Position numbers and translations under genes: made by a program. 37,242 nt of DNA from a virus: positions 1-37,242 of IMG/VR virus record IMGVR_UViG_3300046656_000402; one strand, given 5' to 3'. The notes under the pieces are model-generated. The model saw only the letters and a program-made list of their open reading frames with translations. It ran no database searches and was not told the origin of the DNA. Below, one piece after another: positions 1 to 15,776 of the stretch. Numbering within the stretch: position 1 is the first letter of the stretch; the number at the start of each line of letters is the position of its first letter.

Positions 1-1032
1 AAATTACTTCAACCTATTATTGACGAACTAATATTTCGCAATATACCCTATTCTATATATCATTACGACACCTACCGAGGAGAAAAAGAGTATTTAAGGG
101 CGTCTCGCGTTAATATCGAAAAATCATCAAAAACAATTATAGAAGGAGCATTGAGAGTAAAATCATTTTCTGATGATAATTATTTATTGGAAGCATTAAA
201 AAAACATAAGACTACTAAATTGATAAGTGTAGAAATTAATTTATGGGGAAAGGAATATTTAAATTATTTTAAAAATAACAATATAAAAACTTATTCAATT
301 CAATACTTAACTGATTCTATGTGGCGAACAAAGCAATCGCATATTGACAACATAAGCCGAGTGTATTACTCGACTTCATATATAATGAACAAATGTTTTG
401 AATTTAATAATATAAAGTTTAATCCAAGTAGAGATAGATGTTTGGGCTCACCAATGTTTGAACCAATAGAATTGGAATCAAGAAATAAAAATCTATTGGT
501 GTTGTTGCCCAATCTTAAAAAAGAACATGTGCAACATTCCTTTGGAAACGAAGAAAATTTCTTTAACATAATGCAAAAACTTTATAATCCTGCAAAATAC
601 AACATAATATTAAAAACTCGTAAAAAACAATGGCTTCCAAATTCAATAACTCAATTTGGCGAATTAATGGATGATGGTGATATTATGTATAAGCCTGCGA
701 TGGTTAAATATTTAAAAGAATGTGGAACAACTGTGATGTTTAATAGTAGTGGAATATATGAATGTGTTTTGGGCGGGAATTATGTAATTAATGTAAAATT
801 ACCATTAACCAGATGGAACTGGGATCAGAATAAATTATATAATTATTTTAATAACAATCTATATAATTTTAAAGGTGTCGTGGAAAGTATCGAACAGAAA
901 ACAATATTAGATAAAAATTACGAATTTTCATTAAAACAAATAGATCCTGTTGCTAAAAAAGAATGGCTGGATTTGTTTCTTGGTAATACATCAGATAGTG
1001 CAAAGTTAATAACAGAAGATATACTTAATTAA
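1..1032 (+). CDS. GT-B-like surface-glycan transferase, 5'-truncated by the window edge
   Basis: The reading frame is open from base 1 to the TAA at 1030-1032 (343 codons), so the gene starts outside the window. The TTG at 151 is internal. The second half reads like the donor-binding half of a GT-B enzyme: a strand LLVLLPNL, a helix, then NIILKTRKKQW, then MVKYLKECGTTVMFNSSGIYECVLGGNYVINVKLP-type sequence (split here as TTVMFNSSGIYE and VLGGNYVINV). That order resembles CDP-glycerol glycerophosphotransferases and capsule-processing enzymes, where a Ser-Ser pair follows a buried strand. It is the only plus-strand gene and converges on the minus-strand operon, so it belongs to a different transcript. 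The family call is inference from pattern; an unrelated Rossmann-like protein is possible. Confidence 0.55.
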   Translation, partial: KLLQPIIDELIFRNIPYSIYHYDTYRGEKEYLRASRVNIEKSSKTIIEGALRVKSFSDDNYLLEALKKHKTTKLISVEINLWGKEYLNYFKNNNIKTYSIQYLTDSMWRTKQSHIDNISRVYYSTSYIMNKCFEFNNIKFNPSRDRCLGSPMFEPIELESRNKNLLVLLPNLKKEHVQHSFGNEENFFNIMQKLYNPAKYNIILKTRKKQWLPNSITQFGELMDDGDIMYKPAMVKYLKECGTTVMFNSSGIYECVLGGNYVINVKLPLTRWNWDQNKLYNYFNNNLYNFKGVVESIEQKTILDKNYEFSLKQIDPVAKKEWLDLFLGNTSDSAKLITEDILN

Positions 1033-1073: not shown

Positions 1074-1775
1074 TTATTCTTCCATTTTCCAGCCAACTAT
1101 TTTGATGAACTTTTTAACAACAGAAGCTTTAACACAAATAGCAAGATGTTCGTATGGCTCTGTGCCTCTGACAACTATGCCAACTACCTTTCCATCTTTA
1201 TTTACTACTGGTCCGCCACTATTTCCTCCGGCAACCGCTGCTGAAATTAACAATTCGCCTTTATAATTTGCATTTATAACATTACCTTCTTGCCAAGAAA
1301 AGTTAATGCCATAGGGGTAGCCAACTAACCATAACGGATCTTTAAAATCCACATCTTTATTATAATTATCAACGAACTCCAATGCCTTCAAACCATGATT
1401 TGGCTTTCTTAATAAACAAACATCATGAACTCCGTCTATATCCACTACTTCTGCACCATCTTTTTCTGCAATTGGTTGTCCATCTCGAACTAATTGCAGT
1501 CTTATTGTGTTTTCTAATATACCCTGATCTTGATATTCCATTATACCAGAGCAAACATGTCCAGCGGTAATTAGATAATCTTCATCTATTGCAAATGCCG
1601 TTCCTGACATACGCCCTTTCATCCCAACAGCATTAGCATATACCATTGCTACTGATTTTTCTATCTTGGTCATATCTGGCAAAACTCGATCATTTACACT
1701 ATGACCTGGAACATTTAAATTAACTGTGCAACTTGCTAAAAGCATAGCGCACATAAAAGCAAGAATTTTTTTCAT
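1074..1775 (-). CDS. Trypsin-like serine protease, predicted lipoprotein
   Basis: 233 residues. The N-terminus (MKKILAFMCAMLLASC) is a lipoprotein signal with lipobox LASC, predicting cleavage before Cys16 and lipid attachment there; residue +2 is Thr, not Asp, which in enteric bacteria would favour the outer membrane. The rest is a chymotrypsin-fold protease (Trypsin_2 type) with an intact triad: His73 in TAGHVC, Asp118 in HDVCLLR and Ser186 in GGNSGGPV. The start is fixed by AAAAGGAGT 6-7 nt upstream of the ATG. It is the last gene of the minus-strand series, 24 nt after the neighbouring glycosyltransferase. A secreted, membrane-anchored protease is unusual in a phage late region. It may cut a host surface protein or a virion protein, or act in superinfection exclusion; the target cannot be read from sequence. 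Confidence 0.85.
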   Translation of the reverse strand: MKKILAFMCAMLLASCTVNLNVPGHSVNDRVLPDMTKIEKSVAMVYANAVGMKGRMSGTAFAIDEDYLITAGHVCSGIMEYQDQGILENTIRLQLVRDGQPIAEKDGAEVVDIDGVHDVCLLRKPNHGLKALEFVDNYNKDVDFKDPLWLVGYPYGINFSWQEGNVINANYKGELLISAAVAGGNSGGPVVNKDGKVVGIVVRGTEPYEHLAICVKASVVKKFIKIVGWKMEE

Positions 1776-1799: not shown

Positions 1800-2561
1800 C
1801 TACTTGATAATTTCCAGAGCAATGTTCTTCCATTTTGCTAACTGGTCTTTATGACTTAAAAATCCATTTCTAACCGTCTTTCCTTCTAAATTCGAGCCTC
1901 TTCCGAAATGTGCCAATAGAGGCTTCCCGTTCAACCAAAACTCATCAGATTGAAAATTTCCATCAAAAATCTTGCCTTTATTACTTTTGCAATCAATAAA
2001 TTCTAATAATTGAACCTGATCTTTATAAACCTTATCTCTTAATCTCCAACCAACATCTTCGTGTGATTTATAATTTCTATTCGATCTGTTTTCATCTTTG
2101 CCAGCCCTAAAGTCCATAATGCCGTTGTGTTTTAACAAATTAGTGCTAAATATCAAAAAACAAATATGATAATAAGGCTGTCCTGCCAATTCACCTTTTT
2201 TTGCAGCGAGCATTTTATACTTTGAGAAATCTATTTTATCCCAGTTTTCACATAAAACTATACAATCGCTTTCTATTATTGCCGTCTTAATTGTTTCTAC
2301 CAATGGAAATATTTTATTTAGGGCATCAGAATGTCTATTTGATCCACCTTGCAAAATTGGATTATTATTAACTATCTGAAAATTGTTATAATTTCCAAAT
2401 GCTTCTTTAATTCTATTCTCATTCTTACCATTGGCGTTGTCGCATATAATAAATCTTGGTGCTGGGCGCGTAAATTTTAGAACCGATTTGATCATAAGTT
2501 CTAAAAGTCCATTATCATTTTCTACAACAGTTATAACTGTTAAATCACTTTTATCAGCCAT
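1800..2561 (-). CDS. GT-A family glycosyltransferase
   Basis: The ATG at 2561 gives 253 residues; the frame can also be opened from a TTG at 2594, but neither start has a clear Shine-Dalgarno. Numbered from the ATG, VITVVENDNG is the first strand, IICDN (38-42) the nucleotide-sugar loop, GGSNRHSDALN (72-82) the usual basic/His turn, IESDC (96-100) stands where DXD normally lies, and HEDVGWR (167-173) is the late acidic pair. That order fits a GT-A (GT2-like) enzyme that transfers sugar from a nucleotide donor in the cytoplasm. The gene overlaps the upstream 118-aa gene by 22 nt, suggesting translational coupling. It ends in tandem stops TAG TAA. Donor and acceptor are unknown. Confidence 0.75.
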   Translation of the reverse strand: MADKSDLTVITVVENDNGLLELMIKSVLKFTRPAPRFIICDNANGKNENRIKEAFGNYNNFQIVNNNPILQGGSNRHSDALNKIFPLVETIKTAIIESDCIVLCENWDKIDFSKYKMLAAKKGELAGQPYYHICFLIFSTNLLKHNGIMDFRAGKDENRSNRNYKSHEDVGWRLRDKVYKDQVQLLEFIDCKSNKGKIFDGNFQSDEFWLNGKPLLAHFGRGSNLEGKTVRNGFLSHKDQLAKWKNIALEIIK

Positions 2562-2896
2562 CGTTTTAATGTAAGTTTTGTATATTTGCAACAATTCATT
2601 AATAATTCAAAAATACCCTTTATTTCATTAACTATAAATGAATTACTCCTTGTTAAACCATTGAATATTCTACTTCTCATTTCCACATATATAGTTTCAG
2701 AAAGATGCTTGCTATTGGAATATTTAGATAATTTTTCTAAATGTTGCTCGCCCAAATATGAAAATTTATATTCATTATCTTTATTTTTAATAAAAATCTT
2801 ATACATTTCATAAGAAAAATTCTCACTCATCATTATATCTTTTAATATTGATGTCGCTGGTTTTGACACCTGCCACTGATTTCCTGCCAAAGACAT
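2540..2896 (-). CDS. Unrecognised 118-aa protein of the glycosylation island
   Basis: 118 residues, no family recognised. The protein is Lys-, Ser- and Asn-rich, with no signal peptide, no convincing membrane helix, and a basic C-terminal end (KYTKLTLKRWLIKVI). The start ATG shares its A with the stop of the upstream glycosyltransferase (TAATG), and a GGGG stands 6 nt upstream. The 3' end overlaps the next glycosyltransferase by 22 nt. Such tight nesting on both sides argues it is translated. It could be an accessory subunit or the remnant of a lost domain; nothing in the sequence decides this. Confidence 0.6.
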   Translation of the reverse strand: MSLAGNQWQVSKPATSILKDIMMSENFSYEMYKIFIKNKDNEYKFSYLGEQHLEKLSKYSNSKHLSETIYVEMRSRIFNGLTRSNSFIVNEIKGIFELLMNCCKYTKLTLKRWLIKVI

Positions 2897-3894
2897 TATA
2901 ACCCCATTGTTTTTATATATTTATTAATCATAACCTCAATAGATAAACTTTTAACCGCATGTTCCCTTGATCTTTTCTTAAAATCGTCTAAATTGGGAAT
3001 AATTTTCTCTATTGCATCCGCTATGTTATTATTATAAGTATTGCCATAGTCCCATTCACCACTTTCGACTACTATGCCAGTTTCGTTATTAATTACCATC
3101 TCGGCATTTCCAGAGTAAGAGGCACAAATAACTGGAAGACCACAAGATTGAGCTTCTGGCACAGTATTATCACAAGAGGAACCAATACGAGCGGATAGAA
3201 ATATATCTCCTTGTGCATATGCCTGTGTTAATTGATCATTTGGAAAGGCGCCTAAATGTCTAATACCAACATCGCCCCTATATTTATTATACACCAATAA
3301 GCACTCTTTATCCATATTTCCTACCAAAACAAGCCTTATTTTTTTATTACGACACTTTAATTCTTCATAAACACCAATAAGAGTTTCCATAAAATAACCA
3401 TTACGCATTGAACCTATGTGCAGGAGATTAATAAACCCATCATTTTGTCTTGGAATTGGCTTGAATATATTAACATTAGCCCCGTTATGTATTATTGAAT
3501 ATTTAGAAGGATCGTCTATTTTAACAATTTCTTCAAAAATTCTATCCTTTGACCAGCTTGATTGAAAAATAGTATGATGAATTAAAGGAATATCCCTTGC
3601 CAATTCATTATGTAAGGCCACCATATGACCTTCTACCGCTCTATTAAATTTTTCGTTATATACCTTGTTATATATACCATCAATCCTTAAAAAGACTTTT
3701 GTTTTATTTGGATTTGTTTTTCTTACAATTTTACCAGTATTAATTATACAAAGAGCCACATCTGAATTTTGTGGATTATCATATATAATCTTATGTCCTC
3801 TTTTAGCCATTTCCGTTGCAAACTTATAAGAAAAGATATTTGGGCCACCACCTGAAAGAGCACCATTAACTGATAAATATATTGTTTTACTCAT
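2896..3894 (-). CDS. GT-B (GT4-like) glycosyltransferase, copy 1 of a tandem pair
   Basis: 332 residues. Residues 12-21 (ALSGGGPNIF) form the N-terminal glycine loop, IIHNGANVNIFKP (134-146) is the GT4 linker region, INLLHIGSMRNGYFME (155-170) starts the donor domain, and PEAQSCGLPVICASYSGN (246-263) is the donor-binding motif. In canonical GT4 enzymes a second Glu sits eight residues before the PEA Glu (E-x7-E); here that position is Ser, as it is also non-acidic in the neighbouring copy. The upstream paralogue's stop overlaps this start by 8 nt, and AAGGG is the likely ribosome site. A cytoplasmic transfer of one sugar in a glycan pathway is expected; the sugar is unknown. Confidence 0.85.
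   Translation of the reverse strand: MSKTIYLSVNGALSGGGPNIFSYKFATEMAKRGHKIIYDNPQNSDVALCIINTGKIVRKTNPNKTKVFLRIDGIYNKVYNEKFNRAVEGHMVALHNELARDIPLIHHTIFQSSWSKDRIFEEIVKIDDPSKYSIIHNGANVNIFKPIPRQNDGFINLLHIGSMRNGYFMETLIGVYEELKCRNKKIRLVLVGNMDKECLLVYNKYRGDVGIRHLGAFPNDQLTQAYAQGDIFLSARIGSSCDNTVPEAQSCGLPVICASYSGNAEMVINNETGIVVESGEWDYGNTYNNNIADAIEKIIPNLDDFKKRSREHAVKSLSIEVMINKYIKTMGL
3437..3471. repeat. 35-nt identical direct repeat, copy in the first GT4 gene
   Basis: Identical to 4425-4459, 988 bases away in the same orientation. It encodes the conserved NIFKPIPRQNDG segment at the domain junction of the two paralogous glycosyltransferases. It reflects recent duplication or gene conversion and could support recombination between copies. 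Confidence 0.85.
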
Positions 3895-4864
3895 TCATTA
3901 CCCTTAAATATTCATTAGCCATTGTCTCGACGGATGAAGTTCTAACTGCGTGCTCCCTTGATCTTTTCTTAAAACAATCCAAGTCTATAATGATTTTTTC
4001 CACTGCGTCCGCTATGTTATTATTATATTTTTTTCCATATTCGCACTTGCCACTTTCAACTACAAACCCAGTTTCTCCATCAACAATCAATTCGCCATTT
4101 CCCGAATAAGAAGCGCAAACTACTGGCAAACCACAGGATTGTGCCTCTATAACCGTATTGTCTCCTGTGCCACCAACTCTAACCGACAAGAATATATCTC
4201 CTTGCGAATATACCTGTGATAGTTTATCGTTTGGGGATGCACCTACAAGCCCAATGCCTGGGTCATTAAAATTTCTCAAAACATCTCTACATTCTTTATC
4301 CATACTTCCTACCAAGTTTAATCTAACCTTTATACCGCGATTATTTAATTCCTTATATGCACCAACCAATGCTTCCATAAAATAACCATTTCGCATATTA
4401 CCTATATTTAATAAATTAATAAATCCATCATTTTGTCTTGGAATTGGCTTGAATATATTTAGATCTACTCCATTATGTATTGCAACACATTTATCATTGT
4501 TTATTTCGTCGATTTCTTCTAATACCGTATCCTTTGACCAATGTGATAAAAAAACAACTTTATCTACATATGACAGATCTCGTTTTAATTGGCTATATAA
4601 CTCTATTAACTTTTCTTCGTCCAATCGGTTATAATATTTATTATATATTCCACCTATTCTTAATATAACCTTTGTTTTATTTTTGTCTATTTTTCCTATA
4701 ATTTTATCAGTTTTGTTTATACACACTGCCACATCTGCTAAATTGGGATTGTCATATATAACATTATATCCTCTTTTTTTAATTTCACTTGAAAATTTAT
4801 AACAAAAAATATTTGGGCCGCCGCCAGAGAGGTGCGACTCTTCTGATAAATATATGGTTTTCAT
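3887..4864 (-). CDS. GT-B (GT4-like) glycosyltransferase, copy 2 of a tandem pair
   Basis: 325 residues, a clear paralogue of the next gene downstream along its whole length: shared SGGGPNIF, IYDNP, NIFKPIPRQNDGFINL, MRNGYFME, YSQGDIFLS-type, IEAQSCGLPVVCASYSGN, KKRSREHAV. The first Glu of the GT4 E-x7-E motif is replaced by Gly. The differences are spread through the acceptor-side N-terminal half, as expected if the two copies now recognise different acceptors. The start ATG overlaps the TGA of the small upstream ORF (ATGA), with AGAGAG upstream as a weak ribosome site. Function is inferred from family only. Confidence 0.85.
   Translation of the reverse strand: MKTIYLSEESHLSGGGPNIFCYKFSSEIKKRGYNVIYDNPNLADVAVCINKTDKIIGKIDKNKTKVILRIGGIYNKYYNRLDEEKLIELYSQLKRDLSYVDKVVFLSHWSKDTVLEEIDEINNDKCVAIHNGVDLNIFKPIPRQNDGFINLLNIGNMRNGYFMEALVGAYKELNNRGIKVRLNLVGSMDKECRDVLRNFNDPGIGLVGASPNDKLSQVYSQGDIFLSVRVGGTGDNTVIEAQSCGLPVVCASYSGNGELIVDGETGFVVESGKCEYGKKYNNNIADAVEKIIIDLDCFKKRSREHAVRTSSVETMANEYLRVMNE
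4425..4459. repeat. 35-nt identical direct repeat, copy in the second GT4 gene
   Basis: Exact match to 3437-3471. Flanking DNA diverges at both ends (T for C before it, T for A after it), while the encoded proteins remain alignable, so this is the most conserved nucleotide block of the duplicated pair that I found by eye. Confidence 0.85.
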
Positions 4865-5043
4865 ATCAGCTCTCTAATAAAAAGTTTGCCATCGGATATA
4901 AATATACGATATATCATATAAAAGGAATTTTTATCTATCATGACATATTGCGGAACTCTTACCACAATAGCATTTTTATCCTGCGACAAGATGCCATTAT
5001 TAATAAAAAATGCTCTATACATTAAGATAAGTGCCCTATCCAT
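4861..5043 (-). CDS. Unrecognised 60-aa protein
   Basis: 60 residues, no family recognised. It begins MDRALILMYRAFF and later has SFYMIYRIFISDGKLF, so a short Tyr-Arg pattern occurs twice; a similar pattern is found in the gene just upstream. It is rich in hydrophobic and aromatic residues without a clean membrane helix. The start ATG lies inside the end of the upstream small gene (8-nt overlap), and the TGA overlaps the ATG of the following glycosyltransferase (ATGA). This chain of overlaps supports real translation and coupling. The ribosome site is weak. Confidence 0.55.
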   Translation of the reverse strand: MDRALILMYRAFFINNGILSQDKNAIVVRVPQYVMIDKNSFYMIYRIFISDGKLFIRELI

Positions 5044-5221
5044 TAAAATAGCCCATATCTTCGCATTGTATTATGAAATTTAATATACTATCTTTGTCCG
5101 TGCTATATTGGTAGAAAAAGCCAGATCCGTATTTTTCTACAAGTTCGTGTATTGTCGCTGCCCGATATATAAGATGTTTTCCTAAATAACATCTATAAAT
5201 ATAATGTATGGTCTCATCCAT
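5036..5221 (-). CDS. Unrecognised 61-aa protein
   Basis: The ATG at 5221 gives 61 residues; an in-frame TTG at 5239 would add six residues, but the AAGG there sits directly against the TTG, so the ATG is preferred without certainty. The product starts MDETIHYIYRCYLGKHLIYR and is acidic at its end (QCEDMGYFNG). The MD-x4-5-IYR beginning resembles that of the downstream 60-aa protein. It follows a GT2 gene by about 20 nt and overlaps the next small gene by 8 nt. No function can be proposed from sequence. Confidence 0.5.
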   Translation of the reverse strand: MDETIHYIYRCYLGKHLIYRAATIHELVEKYGSGFFYQYSTDKDSILNFIIQCEDMGYFNG

Positions 5222-5242
5222 TATTAAACATGTCTTCAATCC

Positions 5243-6010
5243 TTATATTAAATTGTTTTGTTTAAATAAATCAGCGAACTCTTTTTGCATATCTTGCCAA
5301 TCTTTTGTTTGTTGAGGGGAGTGGTGGCTTTGCACCTGATCGTTATGTTGCCTCCAATTATATAAAACTTTATCTATTTTTACTATTGGATATTTCATTA
5401 ACATTCGTCCCGCTGCATTATAATCTGTGGCATATTTATAACTTGTATTAAATCCACCTATATCCATTAAGCACTTGATTCTAAACGCTCTCAAATGACC
5501 TATTGGATTTTGGCTTATAAATAATTTTCTTAATATTCTTTGCCCTTCTGGTGTAAATTGGTTTGGAACTAATCTTGCTTTTGCATGATTTATGTGTGCT
5601 ATTCTGCTTTTTAAATCTATTATATTAAATCCACTATAAGTTTGTCCTATTTCTGGATGGGCGTCAAACATTTTTTCAACTTCATGCAATGCGTTGGGTA
5701 GTAATTCATCATCACTATCTAAATTAACTAATATCTCCGCCTCTGGTGTATTTTTTGGCAACCATTCGTTCAATACATAATTAAATGCTGGCTGTTGTCC
5801 TAAATTGGTTTGCATCTTAACCAGTTTTATATATGAAAACATTTTAGCATAATCTTCACAAACTTTTGTTGCCCCATCAGAACTTGCATTATCAATAAGC
5901 AAGTGTATCCATTTTTCCTTTGATAGTGTTTGGCTTATACCAGAATTAATTGCGAGTTTTAATAAATTTTTTCTATTATGCACTAACGATACTAAAACTA
6001 TTTTAGTCAT
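5243..6010 (-). CDS. GT2 family glycosyltransferase
   Basis: 255 residues with the full GT-A plan: IVLVSLVHNR (first strand), LLIDNASSDG (37-46, nucleotide loop), NLGQQPAFN (69-77), VNLDSDDELLP (95-105, the metal-binding DXD), and a late segment GGFNTSYKYATDYNAAGRM where the acceptor-side acidic residue lies. It should transfer a sugar from a nucleotide-sugar in the cytoplasm. The ATG shares its A with the stop of the 55-aa upstream gene (TAATG), and AGGATGAGATA provides a ribosome site. There is no membrane helix, so the acceptor is a soluble protein, nucleic acid or membrane-surface lipid. The specific sugar is unknown. Confidence 0.88.
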   Translation of the reverse strand: MTKIVLVSLVHNRKNLLKLAINSGISQTLSKEKWIHLLIDNASSDGATKVCEDYAKMFSYIKLVKMQTNLGQQPAFNYVLNEWLPKNTPEAEILVNLDSDDELLPNALHEVEKMFDAHPEIGQTYSGFNIIDLKSRIAHINHAKARLVPNQFTPEGQRILRKLFISQNPIGHLRAFRIKCLMDIGGFNTSYKYATDYNAAGRMLMKYPIVKIDKVLYNWRQHNDQVQSHHSPQQTKDWQDMQKEFADLFKQNNLI

Positions 6011-6177
6011 TATCTCATCCTATCTATAATATGAGTTATTTCTGCTATTGAAATACCAAGCATCATACCAAATAACGCCCCAAGTGCAGGCTCTACACTA
6101 TCCGATATAAGTCCTGTTCCCGCACCAAGCACACTAAATAAAACATGCCTTTTGGTTATATAATTTGTAAAATTCAT
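6010..6177 (-). CDS. Small hydrophobic protein, 55 aa
   Basis: Encodes MNFTNYITKRHVLFSVLGAG at the start and ends THIIDRMR. Two hydrophobic stretches are visible, roughly residues 12-25 (VLFSVLGAGTGLIS) and 31-50 (ALGALFGMMLGISIAE), separated by a short acidic turn, so it may be a two-helix membrane hairpin or a single membrane segment. The case for translation is strong although it is short: GGAG at 6183-6186 lies 5 nt before the ATG, the ATG overlaps the TGA of the upstream GT2 (ATGA), and its TAA overlaps the ATG of the downstream GT2 (TAATG). It might anchor the soluble glycosyltransferases at the membrane, or act as a small holin-like protein; neither is shown. Confidence 0.72.
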   Translation of the reverse strand: MNFTNYITKRHVLFSVLGAGTGLISDSVEPALGALFGMMLGISIAEITHIIDRMR

Positions 6178-7007
6178 TTTTGCTCCAATGAACCATCTAA
6201 TTTTTCAAAATTAGCCCACTTTGTATCATCTGGATCATATGGTATATACGGAATATATACATTGCCAGTTTTTTCATATTCAATTTTTGCCTGTGAAAAT
6301 GCCTTTAATTGCGACGATCCTTTTTGATGTGCCCTATTTTTTATAGTTCTATATTTACTACCAGATTTTATTGATTCATTATCTAAATGAACCCCATATG
6401 GTTCAATATATGCACTCATTAAACCTAATCTGTTTAGTCTTACATACATGTCGCTGTCCTCCAAACCATATTGTCCATAAACCCTATAATATCCCACTTT
6501 CTTAAATACTCGTCTTGGCAAAACTAACGCAGCACCACCAAGATTTCCTATTGTTTTTGGTCTAATATTAACACCATTGATGTTTTGCACTGGATATTTT
6601 GTTGGTTCTACACAAATACCAGTAATTCCTAATCTTTGTATCTTATCGCATGCCTCTACTATAAACTTGTCATAATTATCTGGAACCAAAACATCATCAT
6701 CAATTGTCATCAAGTATTCTCCACTTGCAACTTTTAGTCCCTCATTTCTTCCGCCAGCGACACCAAGATTTTTTTGATTATATATTTTTATAATATTTTG
6801 CGTATGTTTGTTTCCATTTTTGATGCCTTCCAAATAGGCACGAGTTTCTATTGCTAATGGACTATTGTCTAATTCTGGAACACTATTATCTACTAAAATC
6901 AATTCATGCGGAACTGTGGTTTTTTTCAACAAGCATTCTATTGTTTGTCTTGTATATTTCAGCCTTCTATAATTTAATACAATAATACTTAATAATTTAT
7001 CGCTCAT
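6174..7007 (-). CDS. GT2 family glycosyltransferase
   Basis: 277 residues: LSIIVLNYRR (6-15), ILVDNSVPELDN (37-48), NLGVAGGRNEG (80-90), LMTIDDDVLVP (99-109, the DXD metal site), and GLEDSDMYVRL (181-191, the catalytic-base region). This is a complete GT-A domain of the rhamnosyltransferase-like GT2 type. Residues after about 215 form a Lys- and Tyr-rich tail ending in an acidic stretch. AGGTGAATA precedes the ATG, and the gene follows the methyltransferase by 7 nt and overlaps the 55-aa gene by 4 nt. It probably adds one sugar in the glycan made by this island. Confidence 0.88.
   Translation of the reverse strand: MSDKLLSIIVLNYRRLKYTRQTIECLLKKTTVPHELILVDNSVPELDNSPLAIETRAYLEGIKNGNKHTQNIIKIYNQKNLGVAGGRNEGLKVASGEYLMTIDDDVLVPDNYDKFIVEACDKIQRLGITGICVEPTKYPVQNINGVNIRPKTIGNLGGAALVLPRRVFKKVGYYRVYGQYGLEDSDMYVRLNRLGLMSAYIEPYGVHLDNESIKSGSKYRTIKNRAHQKGSSQLKAFSQAKIEYEKTGNVYIPYIPYDPDDTKWANFEKLDGSLEQK
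6183..6186 (-). promoter_or_regulatory. Ribosome binding site of the 55-aa gene
   Basis: GGAG on the minus strand, 5 nt before the ATG at 6177, inside the end of the upstream GT2 gene. It is the main evidence that this short overlapping frame is a gene. Confidence 0.7.
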
Positions 7008-7014
7008 TATTCAC

Positions 7015-7518
7015 CTATTTTTTAATTAAGAACGCTCCACAGCAATCTCTGTGTGGCTTGTTGTCTATGAAGGCATCTAACAATATCGCTTTTGGTTCCC
7101 ATTTACATAACGCTCTATAACCATCTGGATTGAACCGCCAACAATCAATTTTCATATGCAACCCGTCTTTGTGTGGTGCCAATAAAAAGAAATGTCCCCC
7201 ATTTTTAAGCACTCTAACAATTTCTTTAAAACTTAACCAAAACATTTCATCATGCTCAAAACAAGAAATAGAAACCGCCACATCAAATATATTATCTTCA
7301 AATGGATATTTATGCGGATCCTTTAAAACCAAATCTACTCCATTTCCAGCCTCTATATCAATTCCAGTATATTTCCAGCCGCGATCCGTGAATAGAGACT
7401 TGCAACTACCATTTATATTCATACTACCAATATCCAATACACTTGTATTTTTATTTTCTAAATGCCCAAGATATTTTATAATATACTTTTCTATATTTAT
7501 ATATGCTGATTTATGCAC
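7015..7518 (-). CDS. SAM-dependent methyltransferase
   Basis: Class I methyltransferase of the Methyltransf_11 kind. From the chosen GTG start it has 167 residues, with SVLDIGSM (26-33, motif I), YTGIDIE (50-56, motif II with the ribose-binding Asp), FDVAVSISCFEHD (78-90) and VLKNGGHFFLLAP (103-115). The later CWRFNPDGYRAL (126-137) is common in methyltransferases that sit in glycan clusters. The start is GTG at 7518 because AAGG stands 5 nt before it, 8 nt after the upstream stop; a TTG at 7542 would extend the protein by eight residues into the upstream gene. It may methylate a sugar or cap the glycan end; the target is inferred from context. Confidence 0.85.
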   Translation of the reverse strand: MHKSAYINIEKYIIKYLGHLENKNTSVLDIGSMNINGSCKSLFTDRGWKYTGIDIEAGNGVDLVLKDPHKYPFEDNIFDVAVSISCFEHDEMFWLSFKEIVRVLKNGGHFFLLAPHKDGLHMKIDCWRFNPDGYRALCKWEPKAILLDAFIDNKPHRDCCGAFLIKK

Positions 7519-7523
7519 GACTA

Positions 7524-7527
7524 CCTT
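7524..7527 (-). promoter_or_regulatory. Ribosome binding site that decides the methyltransferase start
   Basis: AAGG on the minus strand overlaps the TAA of the upstream gene and lies 5 nt before the GTG at 7518. This favours the GTG over the TTG at 7542. Confidence 0.55.
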
Positions 7528-10102
7528 ATTTAAATTTAACAAAGGTTCTTATCATTTTTTTTCTAATAATAGAAGTTGGCGTTCTTATGGTGTCAAATTT
7601 AGATCTCCATTTTTTAGCCAATGCTTGTAAAAGTCTCATGAATTCATTTTTACCAGAAATTAAACTACCAGATGATGAGTCATGCACCAATGGACACAAG
7701 ATGCCATAATTTTTCATCCCTCTGCTTGTTGCCAATAAACAAATATCTGGCCCATACATATGCCACCCATTAAATGTATTACTATCAAATCTTAAACCAC
7801 TTGATTTTTTAATTATCATACAATGTTCATCTACCGTTTGAACCTCTCCAAATCTAACCCTCTTGGTTGATTGCCATTCAATAGCACCCTTGATATTATG
7901 AACTACACCATATGTATCATCCCTCAATGTTATTCCAGCCGTGCCCAAAACACCCCATTTTTTATTTTGCAACTCTATTTCTTTTATACGATCGAACAAC
8001 ATATCTACCCAGCCTTGATAAAATATTACATCTTGGTGGCACAATACAACTATATCACTTCTGGCTTGTGACATTCCCAAATTCAAAGCTTGTGCTGCCG
8101 AATATCTATTATCAAAATTAATAATTGGGATTGTTTCATAATTTTTCTTTGTATTGTTTTTTAATAGCGAATTAATAACATAATTAATATATTGTTTCAT
8201 ATTATTTACACAAGTGACGAAGGAAACATCTACTTTATATATGTTTTTATTTAGGTCTTTTTGAAATACTCCAAAATCTATTGACACCTCTTTCATCCAG
8301 CGTTCTTTGAAAATTCTTATACCTTCTTTTTGTTTTTCTCCGCCGGTTTTATACTTTTTTTGAGTTATGCTTTCTGCATGTTTTAATATTGCATTCGCTG
8401 CGTATAATACTTTCTTATTTAGTTGCTTTCTAACTTTCAAACACAAATCAACATCCTCATAGCAAAAATAATAAACTGGATCAAATCCCCCAACTGCATT
8501 AAAATCTTCGGCTCTCATTAGCATACAAGCACCGGTGACTGCTTGGTAATATCTGTCGTAAGATGCAAATGTCTCTGGAAATGATTCTAAAACAGAATGA
8601 CCTATGTTTGCTGGGCCCTGTGGAATAAAACAAATTCCCGCATGTTGTATTTTTTTCTCGCTATAAATAAGTCTTGCCCCAACAATTCCTATTTCCGGAT
8701 TATGCAATATTTTAGACATCATTTCATGCAACCAAAAAGGTTGTGGCTCAGTATCATTGTTCAAAAAAAGAAAATATTCACCATCTGCATATTTAGTCAA
8801 ATCATTATTTATTGAAGAAAATGAACCCTCTGTCGTTCCTCGCTCTACATACTTAATTCTCGTGTCTTTTAACTCTTTTATATATTCTGATGTTCCGTCG
8901 GTTGAAGCACTGTCTCCAATTATCCATTCCCAATTTGCATAACTTGTATTTTCATTAAGTGCCACATAACATTTTTTTAATAACTCTAATCCATCTCTGG
9001 TTGGAGTTATAATGCTAACTTTTGGAACTTTATCGGCACTATTAACCATCACTTTTGTTATACTTTCAGAACTATTTTTTCTTAATTCGTATGGTCTAAA
9101 TTGCATACTTGTAAAATCCCTATTGTCTATATACTTTACTTTTCTATTATCTGATTCTTTTCTTTCTTTAATATGTTTAATTTTTTCTTTAATTGCATTC
9201 GGTGCAATTTTAGATTTTGGCTGTTCTAATCTATTATATTGAATTGTTTTCAAATATATCTTTCCAGTAGAATTATCTGGTCGCCACAATCTCAAATAAA
9301 TTGGTAAATTTGATGGAAATCTTGGAACTTTTATTATAAAATTATAACTTATCATTTCTTCTGAACTAATATCTATTGAGGCAGGAGCGCCATCAAAGTT
9401 TTTACTGCCAAAAAAATTCACCAGTATCGTTCCATTGCCTGTTTTTTTAGATGCAATTAACGAAATTTTATATGATGCTTCGCTTGTAACCGATACTGGA
9501 ATCATTACAATGGAATGTTTATCTAAAAGTTCTATAAGAGTTATTCCGTCCCTATGGATACTTTTAATTCCCTTACCTTTCCATTTGTAATTATTCCCCC
9601 CAACAATTGCCATATCATTTCCACGAGTTGTGAGTATATTTTTTAATTCCTCTTCTCTTTTTTTAAAAAATTCCTCTTCTCTATTGTTTATAATTTTATT
9701 TTCTTTTTGCTTAATTACATTTTCTACAACTTCCTTGTATCTTATCTCTTTTATTATTACATTCCCTGCCGCACCATTTACTTTTATAATTTTAAAATTA
9801 ATATAATCGTCTAAATAATCATTGCTTATTTCAAAAAAATATTCTGTAAATATAGATGATGTTATATTTATTTTTTGTTCTTTACCTTCCTCTAAATTAT
9901 AATTTATGCCTAATCTTCCTATTCCACCAGAATTTTTTGCTAAAAAGTATATTTTATATTTTGTTTTTGGACTAAAATAAATCTGAAATGTTATAGATGA
10001 GTCTTTTTTTGGCAGCGTCGCACAATCAAATCCATCTATATTTATAATTCTTATATTTTTACCTTTCCATTTATAATTTTTTCCAGATATTAATTTGGTC
10101 AC
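7526..10102 (-). CDS. Large double glycosyltransferase with duplicated beta-rich N-terminus
   Basis: 858 residues in five parts. Residues 5-125 and 166-290 are two related beta-rich domains (GKNYKWKGKNIRIINIDG and GNNYKWKGKGIKSIHRDG at their starts), perhaps carbohydrate-binding sandwiches. A charged helix (125-157, REEEFFKKREEELK) joins them. Residues 360-610 are a GT2 domain: VSIITPTRDG (362-371), GDSASTDG (396-403), FLNNDTEP (447-454), FCYEDVDLCLK (546-556). Residues 624-835 resemble a second GT-A domain of the Glyco_tranf_2_5 kind, with VVLCHQDVIFYQGW (685-698) and GVLGTAGI (717-724). The start is GTG, overlapping the upstream TGA (GTGA). Two catalytic domains suggest a polymerase or two-step transferase; the N-terminal domains may hold the glycan or the acceptor. 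Substrates are unknown. Confidence 0.85.
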   Translation of the reverse strand: MTKLISGKNYKWKGKNIRIINIDGFDCATLPKKDSSITFQIYFSPKTKYKIYFLAKNSGGIGRLGINYNLEEGKEQKINITSSIFTEYFFEISNDYLDDYINFKIIKVNGAAGNVIIKEIRYKEVVENVIKQKENKIINNREEEFFKKREEELKNILTTRGNDMAIVGGNNYKWKGKGIKSIHRDGITLIELLDKHSIVMIPVSVTSEASYKISLIASKKTGNGTILVNFFGSKNFDGAPASIDISSEEMISYNFIIKVPRFPSNLPIYLRLWRPDNSTGKIYLKTIQYNRLEQPKSKIAPNAIKEKIKHIKERKESDNRKVKYIDNRDFTSMQFRPYELRKNSSESITKVMVNSADKVPKVSIITPTRDGLELLKKCYVALNENTSYANWEWIIGDSASTDGTSEYIKELKDTRIKYVERGTTEGSFSSINNDLTKYADGEYFLFLNNDTEPQPFWLHEMMSKILHNPEIGIVGARLIYSEKKIQHAGICFIPQGPANIGHSVLESFPETFASYDRYYQAVTGACMLMRAEDFNAVGGFDPVYYFCYEDVDLCLKVRKQLNKKVLYAANAILKHAESITQKKYKTGGEKQKEGIRIFKERWMKEVSIDFGVFQKDLNKNIYKVDVSFVTCVNNMKQYINYVINSLLKNNTKKNYETIPIINFDNRYSAAQALNLGMSQARSDIVVLCHQDVIFYQGWVDMLFDRIKEIELQNKKWGVLGTAGITLRDDTYGVVHNIKGAIEWQSTKRVRFGEVQTVDEHCMIIKKSSGLRFDSNTFNGWHMYGPDICLLATSRGMKNYGILCPLVHDSSSGSLISGKNEFMRLLQALAKKWRSKFDTIRTPTSIIRKKMIRTFVKFK

Positions 10103-10956
10103 TCAATTTCTGCCTCGTGATTTTCTTTTTGTTGAATAATTGGCTTATAAATCATAAAATTTGGATTATTTAAATAAAATTCTAAATCATTATAGTATTT
10201 TCCAGAACAATTTTTTCTAAATGCTGCTATGTTGTCTTGCAATCTTGGTTGTGTTTTAGATATTCCCTCATTATGCACCAAGACACTATTTGGACAATAA
10301 ACTGCGCCTTTCTTTAACTTATCTTTAATTTTAAGGCACAATTCAATATCTTCGAATGAGTAAAAAAATTCTGTATTAAATCCACCAACTTCTTCAAAAT
10401 CCTTTCTTCTCACCAACATACAGGCGCCAGTAATTGCCTGATAGTATCTATAATGTGATATGAAATCAGAAACACTATCTATTGTTTGCTTATAAAACAT
10501 ATGGTATGGTAAGTTATTAGTTTTGCTACTAAAAAATACACCACAATGTTGTATAGTTTTTTGGTCAGGATATAATAATAATGAACCAACAACTCCTATT
10601 TTATTGTTATTATCTAAAACACTCACCATACTATATAACCAATCATCTCTTAATGGATATACATCATCATTTAAAAATAAAATATAATCATTCTTTCCTT
10701 CTTTTGCTGCGGCGTTATTATTTGAAGAAAAAGAACCAGAATTATCATCGTTAAATATTGGCTCTATATGATCATTAAATAAAATATCATCAATATACAT
10801 TGCATCGTGAATAGTTTTTTTCATTTCTTCACTTGGATCATTTGCAAAAAGATATATCTTATAATCTACGAATTTAGTTTTTTCCAATATCGTTGCTAAA
10901 CAAGTTTTAAGTTTTTCTGTATTTCGATATGTGGTAATTGCAATATCAACGCCCAT
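10099..10956 (-). CDS. GT2 family glycosyltransferase, paralogue of the large double enzyme
   Basis: 285 residues: DIAITTYRNTEKL (4-16), YLFANDP (35-41), NDDNSGSFSSNNNAA (69-83), ILFLNDDVYPL (92-102, metal site), YYQAITGACMLVRR (171-184) and FYSFEDIELCLKI (198-210). The segment from the metal site to the FEDIE motif matches the first GT domain of the neighbouring 858-aa protein closely (YYQA-TGACML-R, VGGF, ED--LCLK), so the two arose by duplication. The ATG directly follows the upstream TAA (TAAATG), with AGGTGAATA as ribosome site. The tail after residue 255 is polar. Expected role: one transfer step in the same glycan pathway. Confidence 0.88.
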   Translation of the reverse strand: MGVDIAITTYRNTEKLKTCLATILEKTKFVDYKIYLFANDPSEEMKKTIHDAMYIDDILFNDHIEPIFNDDNSGSFSSNNNAAAKEGKNDYILFLNDDVYPLRDDWLYSMVSVLDNNNKIGVVGSLLLYPDQKTIQHCGVFFSSKTNNLPYHMFYKQTIDSVSDFISHYRYYQAITGACMLVRRKDFEEVGGFNTEFFYSFEDIELCLKIKDKLKKGAVYCPNSVLVHNEGISKTQPRLQDNIAAFRKNCSGKYYNDLEFYLNNPNFMIYKPIIQQKENHEAEIE

Positions 10957-11703
10957 TTATTCACCTAACTTTGGCAATATCATTTCTTTTTTACCCAACA
11001 TCATTTCTAAAAACATTTTGCGATTTTTATTATACTGCTCTAATAAATCAATATTTTCTGTTTTAAAAGTCTGATGTTCTTTATGAAGTAATTTAATTTT
11101 ATCTATACCATCAATAATTCCGATTTTAAATTGTGGATATTTATTTTTTACAACATAAGACCATGCCGTATCTTCCCAAAATCCAATTCCAAAATCTTCT
11201 GGCAATATTCCGGCCGTCTCAAATACTTTCTTTTTTACACCAAGACACCAGCCAACTGGATATGAAAAACACTTATCTTCCCTATATTTATGCCTGTCGA
11301 TGTCCAAAATATAATTATAAGTTTCATCTAAAATTGATTGTTTTGGTGAAACTATATCATAGTTATATAGTTCCGCTGCATTAATTAATCTCACCAACCA
11401 ATCGTTTTGCAGTATTTGTATATCGTTATTTAACAGTACGATCCATTCGTTTTTAGAATTTCTTATTCCTGCATTAACAGCCTTTGCGAAACCATAATTT
11501 CTATCACTATGAATAAAATTAACTAATGGATGTAATTTTTTTAACAAGTCGATCCACTTTTTATCCGAGCCGTCATCAACAAGAATGATTTCGCAATTAT
11601 TTATTCCATGACTTTGCTCTACACCAACCAAACAACTATGTGTCATTTGAAATAATTGCTGTTGTCTGATATAAGCTGGAATTACTATTGATATATTCTT
11701 CAT
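10957..11703 (-). CDS. GT2 family glycosyltransferase
   Basis: 248 residues: ISIVIPAYIRQQQL (4-17), EIILVDDGSDKKW (38-50), NYGFAKAVNAGIRNS (69-83), IVLLNNDIQI (88-97) and GIGFWEDTAWSYVV (172-185). It is a complete, compact GT-A domain; the NND at the metal site and the ED at 177-178 are in place. The start overlaps the TGA of the upstream GT4 (ATGA) and has no visible Shine-Dalgarno, so translation is probably coupled. It is less similar to the two neighbours than they are to each other. Sugar and acceptor unknown. Confidence 0.88.
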   Translation of the reverse strand: MKNISIVIPAYIRQQQLFQMTHSCLVGVEQSHGINNCEIILVDDGSDKKWIDLLKKLHPLVNFIHSDRNYGFAKAVNAGIRNSKNEWIVLLNNDIQILQNDWLVRLINAAELYNYDIVSPKQSILDETYNYILDIDRHKYREDKCFSYPVGWCLGVKKKVFETAGILPEDFGIGFWEDTAWSYVVKNKYPQFKIGIIDGIDKIKLLHKEHQTFKTENIDLLEQYNKNRKMFLEMMLGKKEMILPKLGE

Positions 11704-12947
11704 TTTATTTTATGTTGATTTAGTAAGTTATAAGTTCCTGGCTTATAATGTTCCACCTTGCCATTCACAACATCTACTATCTTTTGAGCAGCGTTTTGCC
11801 AACTATATTCTTTAACCATCTTTTCCATTTCTGGCTTGAATTTTTTTAATAACTCATCTTTTTCTTTAACTGCCCTTTGCATTAATTCCGCTGTATGATT
11901 AACATCTGGCTGACCTATTTTTGATCCTTTATTATAAGTCCAATATTGCTCTTCTCTTTTTGCTTCTCTTAATTCTGTATTTATTAAAAGAGCATTGCCC
12001 CCATTCATAAAATCTAAATGTCCAGAATATCTTGGTGCAATATTTATTAAACCACATGCCTGAACTTCTAAACCAGGCATATAAAATCCCTCTGCCCCAG
12101 TTGTTGAAATATGAGCATCACAAGCATTATAAATTGAAGCAATATTATCGACATGCCCATCTACTAGTTCAACTTCTGGCATATTACTTCCGTATTTATT
12201 ATATAATTCTTTAAATATATCACCAATGACTATCTCAAATCCCTTACGACCATTTGGATTTTTGGTGGCATCATATAACCCATCACTATGCCTATATACT
12301 TTTGTTTTAAGCACCAAACAAACATCATCTTTTGCCGTAAAAGCCTTACAATATGCTCCCAACATCGTATCAATATTTTTTCTATAATGGGGCGCGACGA
12401 CACTACAAAATTTAAATTTTTTATTGGTTTTTAATTTTGTGGGCGGAATATTTGTATTAAATATCTTTATATCAACACCATGTGGAATTACAAATACTTT
12501 TTCTGCTGGAACACCATTTTTAATAAATATTTCAGCAGAAAAATTAGAAGATGGAAAGTAATAATCTGCTAAATGATAATAATTTTTCCAATTTTCGACC
12601 CATCCATTACCATTTGGATTAAATGTCTCATAATTATAAATAGCACATTTCGCTTTAGAATTAGGAAGAAATCTTTGAGAAAAATTATTTGGAACTGTAT
12701 AAGTGAGATCTATATCAATTGGAATATTGTTTTTCTTTAACTTTTCTAACCCCAATGTGGATTGGAGCATTTTTTCTTTATTAAAAAATGAATTATTAAA
12801 GCCATTTGTTGATATTGGATAAAACCCATGCCCCAATTCTTCAAATGCCATTCCTAATCTTTCCATAACATATACCCACGACAAATTCGTGGATCCATTT
12901 AACCAAGTATATGATCTTATATTTAATTTCGTTATTTCTTCATTCAT
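11700..12947 (-). CDS. GT-B (GT4) glycosyltransferase with intact E-x7-E motif
   Basis: 415 residues from the ATG at 12947; a TTG at 12965 would add six. Landmarks are SYTWLNGSTNLSWVYVMERL (12-31, acceptor side), FVIPHGVDIKIF (152-163, the domain linker), CSVVAPHYRKNIDTML (181-196, the basic donor-phosphate region) and TGAEGFYMPGLEVQACG (283-299), where Glu286 and Glu294 make the full GT4 E-x7-E pair. This distinguishes it from the tandem GT4 pair further downstream, which lacks the first Glu. It is the first gene of the island, 30 nt after the dockerin-bearing virion gene and apparently on the same transcript. It likely adds the first or an early sugar, an inference from position only. Confidence 0.88.
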   Translation of the reverse strand: MNEEITKLNIRSYTWLNGSTNLSWVYVMERLGMAFEELGHGFYPISTNGFNNSFFNKEKMLQSTLGLEKLKKNNIPIDIDLTYTVPNNFSQRFLPNSKAKCAIYNYETFNPNGNGWVENWKNYYHLADYYFPSSNFSAEIFIKNGVPAEKVFVIPHGVDIKIFNTNIPPTKLKTNKKFKFCSVVAPHYRKNIDTMLGAYCKAFTAKDDVCLVLKTKVYRHSDGLYDATKNPNGRKGFEIVIGDIFKELYNKYGSNMPEVELVDGHVDNIASIYNACDAHISTTGAEGFYMPGLEVQACGLINIAPRYSGHLDFMNGGNALLINTELREAKREEQYWTYNKGSKIGQPDVNHTAELMQRAVKEKDELLKKFKPEMEKMVKEYSWQNAAQKIVDVVNGKVEHYKPGTYNLLNQHKIK

Positions 12948-12977: not shown

Positions 12978-15776
12978 TTACACGGTGACCAATAAATCAC
13001 TAAACTGCGAAGAGGTAATTGCCACTTCTGTATTTTTAAATCCTGCCTTTTTTAAATATACGGCAAGACTTATTTTTGTTCTTAACTCTGGTCTGGTGCT
13101 AATATTGCGTATATTAGCCGCCCTAACTCTTAAAATACCAGAGGCTTGTGTATATAAAACGGCAATAGTTTCGTTTATTGGATCATTGCCATCAATAGAA
13201 CCTATGTCATCTCCACCCAAATCTTTTACAAATGACTGGATGCTTGCAACTATTTTTATCTGATTATTGTCCAGTGCCGAAGCAGTAACAAAACTGCCAT
13301 CTGAAAATTTCATTTGATTTTTAATGAAATTATTAAATATATCTACTTCTCCCTGCGTGGAACCCTCTGGCAAATCTATTATTATTGAATTAACTTCTAA
13401 ATCTATTGCATATGGATTTCCATCAACATCAAGCAAATCTCCGCCCAAAAATAAATCATCTGGAACGAACACTTTATTTACCCCGCCGGAACTTGGTAAA
13501 TCTGATGAAGAAACAATAGTAAATGTTTTTGGAATAAATCTTCTTAAATCAGTTACTAATAAATTGCTTGGTGTCCATATTGGCACAAAGTCTATTCTAT
13601 ACTCTAATGAAGAAAATGGCACCAAATTAAACGATGCATCATTACCTATCATATCCGCTGGTGTATTTAATGGATCAACTAAACTCTCAACTGTTATTAA
13701 AACCCTTTTAAATGTGCTACCTGCGTCAAATGCCGTGCCAAGAGCAATATTTTGTTGAATTAATTGTGCATCAACTATATCTATTACTCCGTCATTATTT
13801 ACATCCGCTCTTATTATTTCTTCCATAGTAACCGCACCATTTATTATAGCATCCTGCTGATCTGCACTTGATATTGTTCCAGATGTAAGATCTTTGGCAT
13901 ATCCATCTAATGCCTGTGCTCTAACAACATCACTTAAATCTATCACGCCATCATCATTAACATCTCCATAGGCATCGTTAAACACTTCTACTTTAACAAT
14001 ACGATACTTTAATTCTGGCTCCTGTGTATTTGGAATTAAAATAGAACCAACTAAATTATTTAGTATAACATCTGAATTTGGACTAATTATCGTAAATGTA
14101 TTTTCTTTTAATAGACCCGGAAAATCAGTAAATCCAGTTATTTCAGGATTATCTACTGGATTTGTATCTTGGGCATAACCCAAAATAATTGTTTCATTTC
14201 CAGCATCCAATAGTGTTGTCAAAGTATCTCCTGAAACTACCGAAACACTTGATATATCTTCTATTCTTGTAAAAACTAAATTACCAGTTGCCGGATGTGG
14301 CTTTGGATCAGTAAAATTGTTTGCCTTTTGAACTATCGCATAATTTTTGGTATTAAATGATACATCTATAAAATTGTGATGTCCCTCTATAAATGGCTCA
14401 TCGACGCCCGTTGTATTATTGGTTATAATCTTTGGAATTGTAATCTTAACTCCTGCGTCAAAAGCAACTCCATCTACCACCCTTAAAGCATCTGTATATA
14501 TTTTAAACCACATGTCACTTTCTGGAATATCAGTCCATATATTGCCAGAAAACACCGTCATTCTCATATTATCTGCTACTGCCGGATCTCTACTTGTATT
14601 CGCCGCTTCCTGTAAAACAATGGTTCCGTTGCTTATATTTCCAGATCTTCTTATAGTAACTACATAATATTTTCCCACTTCTATTCCGGAATGTGCTAAT
14701 CCAGACTGGGTAAATATAAAATCTACTACCTGCGGATCCCCATTTAATGACACCCCTAGATCTTCTAATCCGCTTTGATTAAAGGACACCTCTGCCAAAG
14801 TAGATGGCTCTGGATCAAACTCAATTGCTGTGCCTGGAATAGCATCAGTTGGGCAGGTAGTGGTGGTTTGAAGTGCCCTAATTCCTACAACTATTTCTCC
14901 TGACCAATTGAATTCTTCGCCAGGTATAGCCAATGTATTTTCTAACACAGACAACAGCAAGGATATTTTTTGTATATTATCTGTTGTTGCTTGAAATTTT
15001 TCGCCTATAATTAGTCCCACTGTATCTGGTGGCAATTCTCTTGTAGTGGTTGCTGTTACATTTATATTTAAATCATTGGAGTTTAATCCCTCTGTTGCAG
15101 CAATCTCATCAAGCAAAATGTCTAATGTTTTTGATAAAGTTGCTGGCTTAAAATTTCTATAATCCATATTTGGTTCTACTGATTGCTCTGCCATAATCGG
15201 ATCTATGGCAAGTGTCATTGGTAAAGCCTCCAGTATTCTCAACCTGCCACCAACATTTCTACACGCAATGCCATCAACAAGAATGTTTTGATTGCCTCTA
15301 AAATCCTGCGTCATTAGTGCTATGATTTTTGTAAAATGTTTTCTTGTTATTTGTGACCCATTGTCATCAAATACCAGCACCTCTTCCTCAAAATTACCAC
15401 CAAAAACTGTACCAAAAATAAAAATCTTTGCTACAGCGGATCCTAATAATTCCGCGCCTGATATTTCCACCTCAAGCTGATTGCCTTCCGACGCGTCCGA
15501 TGGTTGTGTATAAACTACATTTCCAAAAGTATCTGTTGGGTATATGGGCTCACCATCGAAATTTTCCGTATCCAATAAGCTTTGCACAGAAGCTGGGGCG
15601 CTATCAGTATCAAACAATACAACTTGTATTGCCGTATCCTTTTCAATACCGCTACCGAATGCGCTATCGGCTACTTGAGCAATATTATCGTGCCACGCTT
15701 GCTGCTCTATATCCATATCAGTTTCGGTTATTTGCATACCATCAAACCAATTTGTACGCTGAAGTATTGTTGCCAT
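12978..15776 (-). CDS. Baseplate/appendage protein with dockerin-like calcium-binding pair
   Basis: 932 residues. The N-terminus (QRTNWFDGMQITETDMDIEQ, 6-25) resembles the anchoring start of phage fibre and baseplate-appendage proteins. The middle is beta-rich. Residues 604-677 hold two F-hand loops, GDVNDDGVIDLSDVVRAQAL and ADVNNDGVIDIVDAQLIQQN, with calcium ligands Asp605, Asn607, Asp609, Asp616 and Asp658, Asn660, Asp662, Asp669. This is the dockerin I pattern, although the loops start about 53 residues apart, wider than usual. Beta-rich sequence follows to the end. AAGGAGAG fixes the ATG. It comes after the LamG protein in the operon and before the first glycosyltransferase. The fold may be stabilised by calcium or may bind a partner; cellulosome function is not implied. 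Confidence 0.72.
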   Translation of the reverse strand: MATILQRTNWFDGMQITETDMDIEQQAWHDNIAQVADSAFGSGIEKDTAIQVVLFDTDSAPASVQSLLDTENFDGEPIYPTDTFGNVVYTQPSDASEGNQLEVEISGAELLGSAVAKIFIFGTVFGGNFEEEVLVFDDNGSQITRKHFTKIIALMTQDFRGNQNILVDGIACRNVGGRLRILEALPMTLAIDPIMAEQSVEPNMDYRNFKPATLSKTLDILLDEIAATEGLNSNDLNINVTATTTRELPPDTVGLIIGEKFQATTDNIQKISLLLSVLENTLAIPGEEFNWSGEIVVGIRALQTTTTCPTDAIPGTAIEFDPEPSTLAEVSFNQSGLEDLGVSLNGDPQVVDFIFTQSGLAHSGIEVGKYYVVTIRRSGNISNGTIVLQEAANTSRDPAVADNMRMTVFSGNIWTDIPESDMWFKIYTDALRVVDGVAFDAGVKITIPKIITNNTTGVDEPFIEGHHNFIDVSFNTKNYAIVQKANNFTDPKPHPATGNLVFTRIEDISSVSVVSGDTLTTLLDAGNETIILGYAQDTNPVDNPEITGFTDFPGLLKENTFTIISPNSDVILNNLVGSILIPNTQEPELKYRIVKVEVFNDAYGDVNDDGVIDLSDVVRAQALDGYAKDLTSGTISSADQQDAIINGAVTMEEIIRADVNNDGVIDIVDAQLIQQNIALGTAFDAGSTFKRVLITVESLVDPLNTPADMIGNDASFNLVPFSSLEYRIDFVPIWTPSNLLVTDLRRFIPKTFTIVSSSDLPSSGGVNKVFVPDDLFLGGDLLDVDGNPYAIDLEVNSIIIDLPEGSTQGEVDIFNNFIKNQMKFSDGSFVTASALDNNQIKIVASIQSFVKDLGGDDIGSIDGNDPINETIAVLYTQASGILRVRAANIRNISTRPELRTKISLAVYLKKAGFKNTEVAITSSQFSDLLVTV

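Follow-up and report, generated by a model that had tools for sequence, protein, structure and literature searches.

A glycosyltransferase island behind the baseplate operon of a jumbo phage family, a candidate module for glycosylation of the virion

Large sugar-gene clusters of jumbo cyanophages have been interpreted as tools for modifying the host surface (PMC7824862, PMC2984593). Glycosyltransferases (GTs) of mycobacteriophages have been proposed to modify structural proteins of the phage itself (Freeman et al. 2023, as reported in PMC12619734 and PMC11256854), and moraphages, aquatic jumbo phages having baseplate and contractile-tail genes, feature four putative GT groups in their core genome, according to PMC12619734. 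The present analysis concerns a GT island at positions 1800-12947, minus strand, of the IMG/VR virus record IMGVR_UViG_3300046656_000402, a virus genome fragment of 37,242 bases, referred to as the window. Nine GT genes (three GT4-like, six GT-A), a methyltransferase gene and four small open reading frames (ORFs) follow each other there almost without gaps. The island is interpreted as a module for glycosylation of the virion, at the tail or baseplate, with a probability of roughly 60%.

Linkage of the leading glycosyltransferase to the baseplate operon

The right part of the window is a baseplate operon on the minus strand, whose last gene (12978-15776) encodes a protein of 932 amino acids (aa), here named V932. 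The first GT gene of the island, GT4a (11700-12947, minus strand; the ORF opens at 12965, with a likely ATG at 12947), follows after 12-30 nt. No terminator-like site was found between the two, and promoter and terminator scans gave signals not above chance. Neighbouring genes of the island mostly overlap by 1-17 nt or are 0-7 nt apart, in agreement with the initial annotation, which had described overlap-chained genes directly behind the 932-aa gene.

Relatives were collected by scanning IMG/VR with alignments of the baseplate, V932 and GT4a proteins, the baseplate wedge protein (22500-25733) serving as anchor; alignments were required, as single-protein scans with GT4a or with the 858-aa GT of the island found no relatives. 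The search revealed a large family of related metagenomic jumbo phages, with contigs up to 340 kb, whose records and sequence stretches are indicated below by G and L numbers, respectively. In the nearest relatives (58-67% baseplate identity) the island is syntenic, namely in G002 (L013/L014), G004 (L020, 206 kb), G005 (L021/L033), G020 (L182) and, up to the contig end, G003. When records with at least 41% baseplate identity were considered whose contigs run on for at least 12.5 kb downstream, GT2-family genes were found downstream of the baseplate, on the same strand, in 19 out of 20, mostly starting 10-13 kb past the wedge gene; in the twentieth (G052) no GT2 gene was counted, and GT4a is there. 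At 35-38% baseplate identity GT2 genes were found in 3 of 14 records, yet GT4a is located behind V932 wherever the contig reaches it.

V932 homologues are contained in 42 of 50 related records, short cross-matches to the gene for the 2230-aa operon protein being left out. All 33 records reaching GT4a have it on the strand of V932 and downstream of that gene, and this includes each of the 26 whose contig leaves room for 5.5 kb or more. Near-duplicates are present in these counts (G013/G014 and G028/G042 have identical GT4a, while each of the pairs G023/G037 and G005/G008 seems to represent one phage), which are therefore to be read as counts of lineages, not of independent events. The spacing between the two genes is often 20-50 nt; elsewhere a small gene or a homing-endonuclease-like ORF stands between them. 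GIY-YIG-like ORFs resembling homing endonucleases are located in close relatives both at this site and between GT genes (L013:3589-4860, L021, L033, L182), and are absent from the window.

Comparison of V932 and GT4a distances over 31 records gave a Mantel r of 0.90, a value reached by no permutation. GT4a is under strong purifying selection, the ratio of nonsynonymous to synonymous substitution rates (dN/dS) being 0.06-0.11 in the two measurable pairs. Taken together, the constant linkage, the correlation and the low dN/dS point to an old, vertically kept pairing of V932 and GT4a, rather than to repeated insertion; phage GTs genetically tied to structural genes, as expected of virion glycosylation, are therefore found here by linkage. 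Chance, or an island private to the window, was ruled out by the recurrence in 19 of 20 and 33 of 33 records. The connection to the baseplate, initially annotated as contextual, is thus real and goes beyond context, being conserved across a virus family; the comparative search then suggested located the island at the same place beside baseplate genes of related phages, and not at unrelated positions.

The nearest named relatives of the baseplate are found in Bacillus phage G (32%) and in Tunturiibacter phage Tunturi_5 (28%); in neither is a GT annotated in the roughly 18 kb downstream of that gene. A search of 50,697 phage records with V932 was without match. In cellular genomes, scanned twice, no related prophage was detected, only GT fragments of 28-35% identity in three metagenome-assembled genomes, and tRNA and Rfam searches gave no match pointing to a host.

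Site of assembly, acceptor and alternative explanations

A crude scan for membrane segments was negative for polytopic membrane proteins in the analysed sugar-gene stretches of the window, G002 and G004. Similarly, no clear one was found in the islands of nine other records, where at most two weak segments were seen in one ORF; as a control, gtrA, gtrB and gtrC of phage P22 were detected with 1, 2 and 7 segments. In or next to the window island, segments were predicted only in a 55-residue ORF and in a separate protease, and no member of Wzx-type flippase families was found in the sugar regions. The components of a gtrABC system, i.e. a GtrA flippase, a GtrB with C-terminal membrane helices and a polytopic Gtr transferase, are missing. 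For these reasons, cytoplasmic assembly of the glycan on a soluble acceptor is probable; more generally, enzymes that are soluble and cytoplasmic must build either on such an acceptor or on a lipid carrier of the host, handled by the host's own machinery. Because the island is chained to, and co-inherited with, a baseplate-operon gene, a virion acceptor is favored. The initial annotation had offered virion fibers or the infected cell surface as targets: the former are favored over the latter, no membrane or lipid-carrier step being encoded.

Several observations weigh against virion glycosylation. The virion-operon proteins contain no clear Ser/Thr-rich acceptor tract (peak Ser+Thr fraction 0.36 per 50-residue window), nor a serine-rich repeat of the type used as acceptor in serine-rich-repeat glycoprotein systems. 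V932 is assigned to the virion from operon membership alone, and in G018 GT4a lies 10.8 kb from V932, with other genes between. The family is known from genes alone, with no known isolate, virion or glycan. Adjacency to tail genes is in itself weak evidence, because gtrABC of P22, which acts on the host surface, also adjoins a tail gene. Soluble GTs can use host lipid-linked glycans, and missing membrane genes do not therefore exclude the host surface. Finally, the 'LPS' (lipopolysaccharide) clusters of Prochlorococcus phage P-SSM2 are also devoid of membrane proteins, so that either their label is weakened or the criterion does not discriminate.

Remodelling of the host surface, in which the GTs would extend lipid-linked O-antigen, capsule or S-layer glycans of the host and exclude competing phages, is considered unlikely, although the clusters of jumbo cyanophages, of the same kind in their GT, nucleoside diphosphate sugar and methyltransferase content, have been interpreted in this way (PMC7824862, PMC2984593), and although the variable sugar genes of G002 and G004 resemble those for capsule and flagellin sugars. 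Against it, the sugar regions lack polytopic membrane proteins and flippases, and the island forms one physical chain with virion genes and is inherited together with V932; the P-SSM2 precedent is itself unproven, and concerns clusters in which membrane segments are likewise missing.

GTs may also act on phage DNA, glycosylating its modified bases, as happens in other phages, sometimes with several GTs (Pyle et al. 2024, as cited in PMC12619734). For the present island such hypermodification is very improbable: no base-modifying enzyme was seen beside it, and linkage to a baseplate would be unexpected. A search for Tet/JBP enzymes (PF12851) gave no match, but the controls were silent too and the contigs are incomplete. 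Comparably little probability is assigned to a cargo island, i.e. GTs gathered by transfer at a tolerated site behind a late operon and sharing no common function. The 3' part, highly variable among relatives and containing homing-endonuclease-like ORFs, speaks in favor of it; the front GT, however, is kept in every record reaching it, co-inherited with V932 and under purifying selection, and for the front part of the island the cargo explanation is largely refuted.

Gene content of the island, its relatives and the operon

The initial count of nine GT genes, one with two GT-like domains, was reproduced (nine genes, ten GT domains), the evidence for the ninth gene (1800-2594) being weaker. Seven genes exceed Pfam cut-offs (two GT4, five GT-A). 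GT4a, itself below the cut-off, is recognised by PHROG 2170 'glycosyltransferase' (E 1.5e-31) and through relatives that hit Pfam models of GT4 with E down to 3e-11, and the E-x7-E pattern of GT4 enzymes is conserved in it. It is followed, on the minus strand, by GT-A 1 (10957-11703; PF00535, E 5.2e-22), GT-A 2 (10099-10956; PF00535, E 1.2e-12; 56-72% identity in close relatives) and the 858-aa, two-domain GT-A protein (7526-10102), whose domains cover residues ~360-600 and ~627-800 (PF00535, 2.6e-27; PF13712, 6.8e-14). A methyltransferase dependent on S-adenosylmethionine (7015-7542; Methyltransf_11, E 2.5e-11) separates the latter from GT-A 3 (6174-7007; PF00535, E 3.9e-16). Then come, on the same strand, the 55-residue ORF with one predicted membrane segment (6010-6177), whose slot is occupied by other small membrane proteins in two relatives, and GT-A 4 (5243-6010; PF00535, E 1.9e-14; 67-70% identity in relatives). 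An ORF of 67 aa (5036-5239) is conserved, two relatives having a homologue in the corresponding slot (43-44% identity), while one of 60 aa (4861-5043) is without demonstrated homologue. GT4b (3887-4864; PF13692, E 5.7e-15), GT4c (2896-3894; PF13692, E 1.3e-14), an ORF of 118 aa (2540-2896; weak homologue, 28%, in one relative) and the divergent GT-A 5 (1800-2594) complete the minus-strand chain. The methyltransferase and the four small proteins of the initial annotation are thus confirmed; the methyltransferase is located mid-chain, therefore giving no sign that methylation ends the pathway, as had been proposed.

For GT-A 5, whose homology starts near 2549 and which has 46-58% identical homologues in two relatives, Pfam search gave no match. 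A three-member profile was aligned by hhalign to the other GT-A genes of the island (probability 83%, E 1e-5), and in a structure model of low confidence the N-terminal half matched SpsA, TarS, SunS and other GT-A structures by Foldseek. AlphaFold models of this protein and of the 858-aa GT are poor (mean pLDDT ~51). In the weak model of the latter, two putative beta-sandwich domains precede the GT-A stretches; the Foldseek list, in which carbohydrate-binding and other beta-sandwich domains are mixed with GT-A synthases, was used only as a hint of their nature.

In the records mapped gene by gene (G021, G023, G029, G050) the core behind GT4a is formed by GT-A 1, GT-A 2, a ~300-aa protein, GT-A 3 and a beta-sandwich protein, which in G021 also contains GT2 and GT6 domains. 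The beta-sandwich domain of the core is the one present in two copies in the N-terminal part of the 858-aa GT, and recurs, fused to GTs, across the family. Beyond the core, content is lineage-specific, with nonulosonic-acid, rhamnose or fucose genes: GT11 fucosyltransferases and a GDP-mannose dehydratase in some relatives, rhamnose-type genes, as read by eye, in G036. G002 and G004 share orthologous nonulosonic-acid genes, i.e. PseB-like, PseC-like aminotransferase, PseG-, PseH- and PseF-like genes and 3-4 NeuB-family synthases; most matches are below NCBIfam equivalog cut-offs, so that they point to a class of sugar and not to an exact one. NeuB is confined to these two of 50 records. A full glycan pathway, as initially annotated, is not present in the window, where no sugar-activating genes are found; the two longer relatives have them downstream.

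Some further features of these regions deserve mention. In G004 (L029:15068-16216) and G002 (L014:7280-8470) the UDP-GlcNAc 4,6-dehydratase of PseB/CapD type is fused behind a MerR-type helix-turn-helix domain, the two proteins being 60% identical; a DNA-binding domain on a sugar enzyme is unusual. The 3-4 NeuB-family paralogues per phage are found in L015, L016, L029 and L030, and three tested copies from G004 match the synthase profile only up to ~256-277 of 329 positions, and seem therefore to be without the C-terminal domain of known sialic acid synthases. For several G002/G004 proteins an identity as MptE/Maf-type transferases was considered and dropped, as no Pfam match was obtained. Short proteins of 60-85 aa between sugar genes look alike by eye (window 5036-5239 and 4861-5043; L029:6708-6959; L029:14829-15071; L033:5638-6022) and possibly form one small protein family tied to the islands. 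On the opposite strand, a 343-aa protein without Pfam match, cut at the window edge (1-1032, plus strand), has 42-49% identical homologues in the sugar regions of G002 and G004, with two further paralogues in L015, and may possibly belong to an unrecognised transferase family. Directly behind the last GT a trypsin-like protease with a lipoprotein-type signal sequence is encoded (1074-1775, minus strand).

The baseplate operon comprises, on the minus strand, a sheath initiator or gp25-like protein of 142 aa (25762-26190; Pfam Sheath_initiator, 5.8e-5, below cut-off; PHROG 2669 baseplate, 8.7e-10), the J/gp6-like wedge protein of 1077 aa (PHROG 6 baseplate wedge, E 3.7e-43), the 2230-aa protein (15806-22498; 52-64% identity in relatives), which from its operon position is probably structural, and V932. 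A short related segment is common to V932 (residues ~88-155) and the 2230-aa protein, and the cross-match is repeated in many relatives. V932 had been annotated as a dockerin-bearing virion protein: two dockerin-like calcium-loop repeats are visible (residues ~603-677; 13735-13975), but the Pfam call is just under the cut-off (Dockerin_1, E 3e-4; 21.4 versus 22.9 bits), and the virion role comes from the operon. At least one repeat is present in G001, G003 and G004, and none was found by the same pattern in the homologues of G009, G018 and G020; in G002 the gene is split in two exactly at the repeat site.

Proposed role and comparison with known systems

The island may be regarded as the front, conserved portion of a glycosylation cassette encoded by the phage. 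It would presumably be expressed late, as the closing section of the baseplate operon, and the family would probably share a built-in machine coating its own tail with sugars. GT4a would most likely place the first sugar or sugars on a cytoplasmic virion protein, the leading candidates being V932, in the first place, or a neighboring tail protein. The chained GT-A and GT4 enzymes would then lengthen the glycan sugar by sugar, either before the tail is assembled or while this takes place; the two-domain enzyme would probably hold the acceptor or the growing glycan by its N-terminal beta-sandwich domain or domains, and the methyltransferase would add a methyl group. Where a phage makes its own unusual activated sugars, these would be supplied by the lineage-specific downstream genes; the window phage may use host sugars or genes past the contig end. 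As the glycan would be exposed on the finished virion, no membrane transport would be needed, and it might serve to shield the tail tip or to change adsorption. A more specific version is put forward tentatively: GT4a would be a dedicated protein GT with V932 as obligatory acceptor, and the jumbo-phage family would carry an exchangeable tail-tip glycan cassette, capped in some members with phage-made nonulosonic (sialic-acid-like) sugars, as shield or adsorption chemistry.

Large sugar clusters of jumbo phages are usually taken as host-surface tools, whereas linkage and absent membrane machinery point here to the virion. The tail-linked leading GT makes the question of the target testable with one acceptor and one enzyme. 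If the interpretation is correct, a tail tip glycosylated with variable and in part sialic-acid-like sugars would be widespread among giant phages, and would matter for adsorption, for competition between phages and for how antibodies recognise them.

Among described systems, mycobacteriophages differ in having few GT genes and in glycans shown on capsid and tail tube, and the consulted texts of PMC12619734 and PMC11256854 describe no linkage to a gene at the baseplate end; for moraphages, compared by description only, the consulted text of PMC12619734 reports no GT position relative to tail genes. The clusters of P-SSM2 share with the island chained GT1/GT2-type genes, a methyltransferase and the lack of predicted membrane proteins, a likeness assessed at the level of gene content. 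They include sugar-nucleotide genes, present in the family only in relatives (G002, G004, G036 and others), and one of the two is flanked by tail-fiber genes; in contrast to the island, the P-SSM2 baseplate block (2-39 kb) has no annotated GT gene and the published role is host-surface change. P22 gtrABC also lies beside a tail gene, but its three genes are convergent with it, encode clear membrane proteins and act on lipid-linked O-antigen. In serine-rich-repeat adhesins, proteins are O-glycosylated stepwise in the cytoplasm by GTs encoded beside the acceptor gene. The island differs from them in that no serine-rich repeat acceptor and no GtfA/GtfB pair were identified; the stepwise cytoplasmic glycosylation proposed for the island is alike, and this system is taken as the working model. 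A literature search of partial coverage turned up no description of such a tail-operon GT cassette and none of a jumbo phage with nonulosonic-acid genes. GT clusters of jumbo phages and glycosylation of virions are already known, while the family-wide tail linkage and the cassette design appear to be new.

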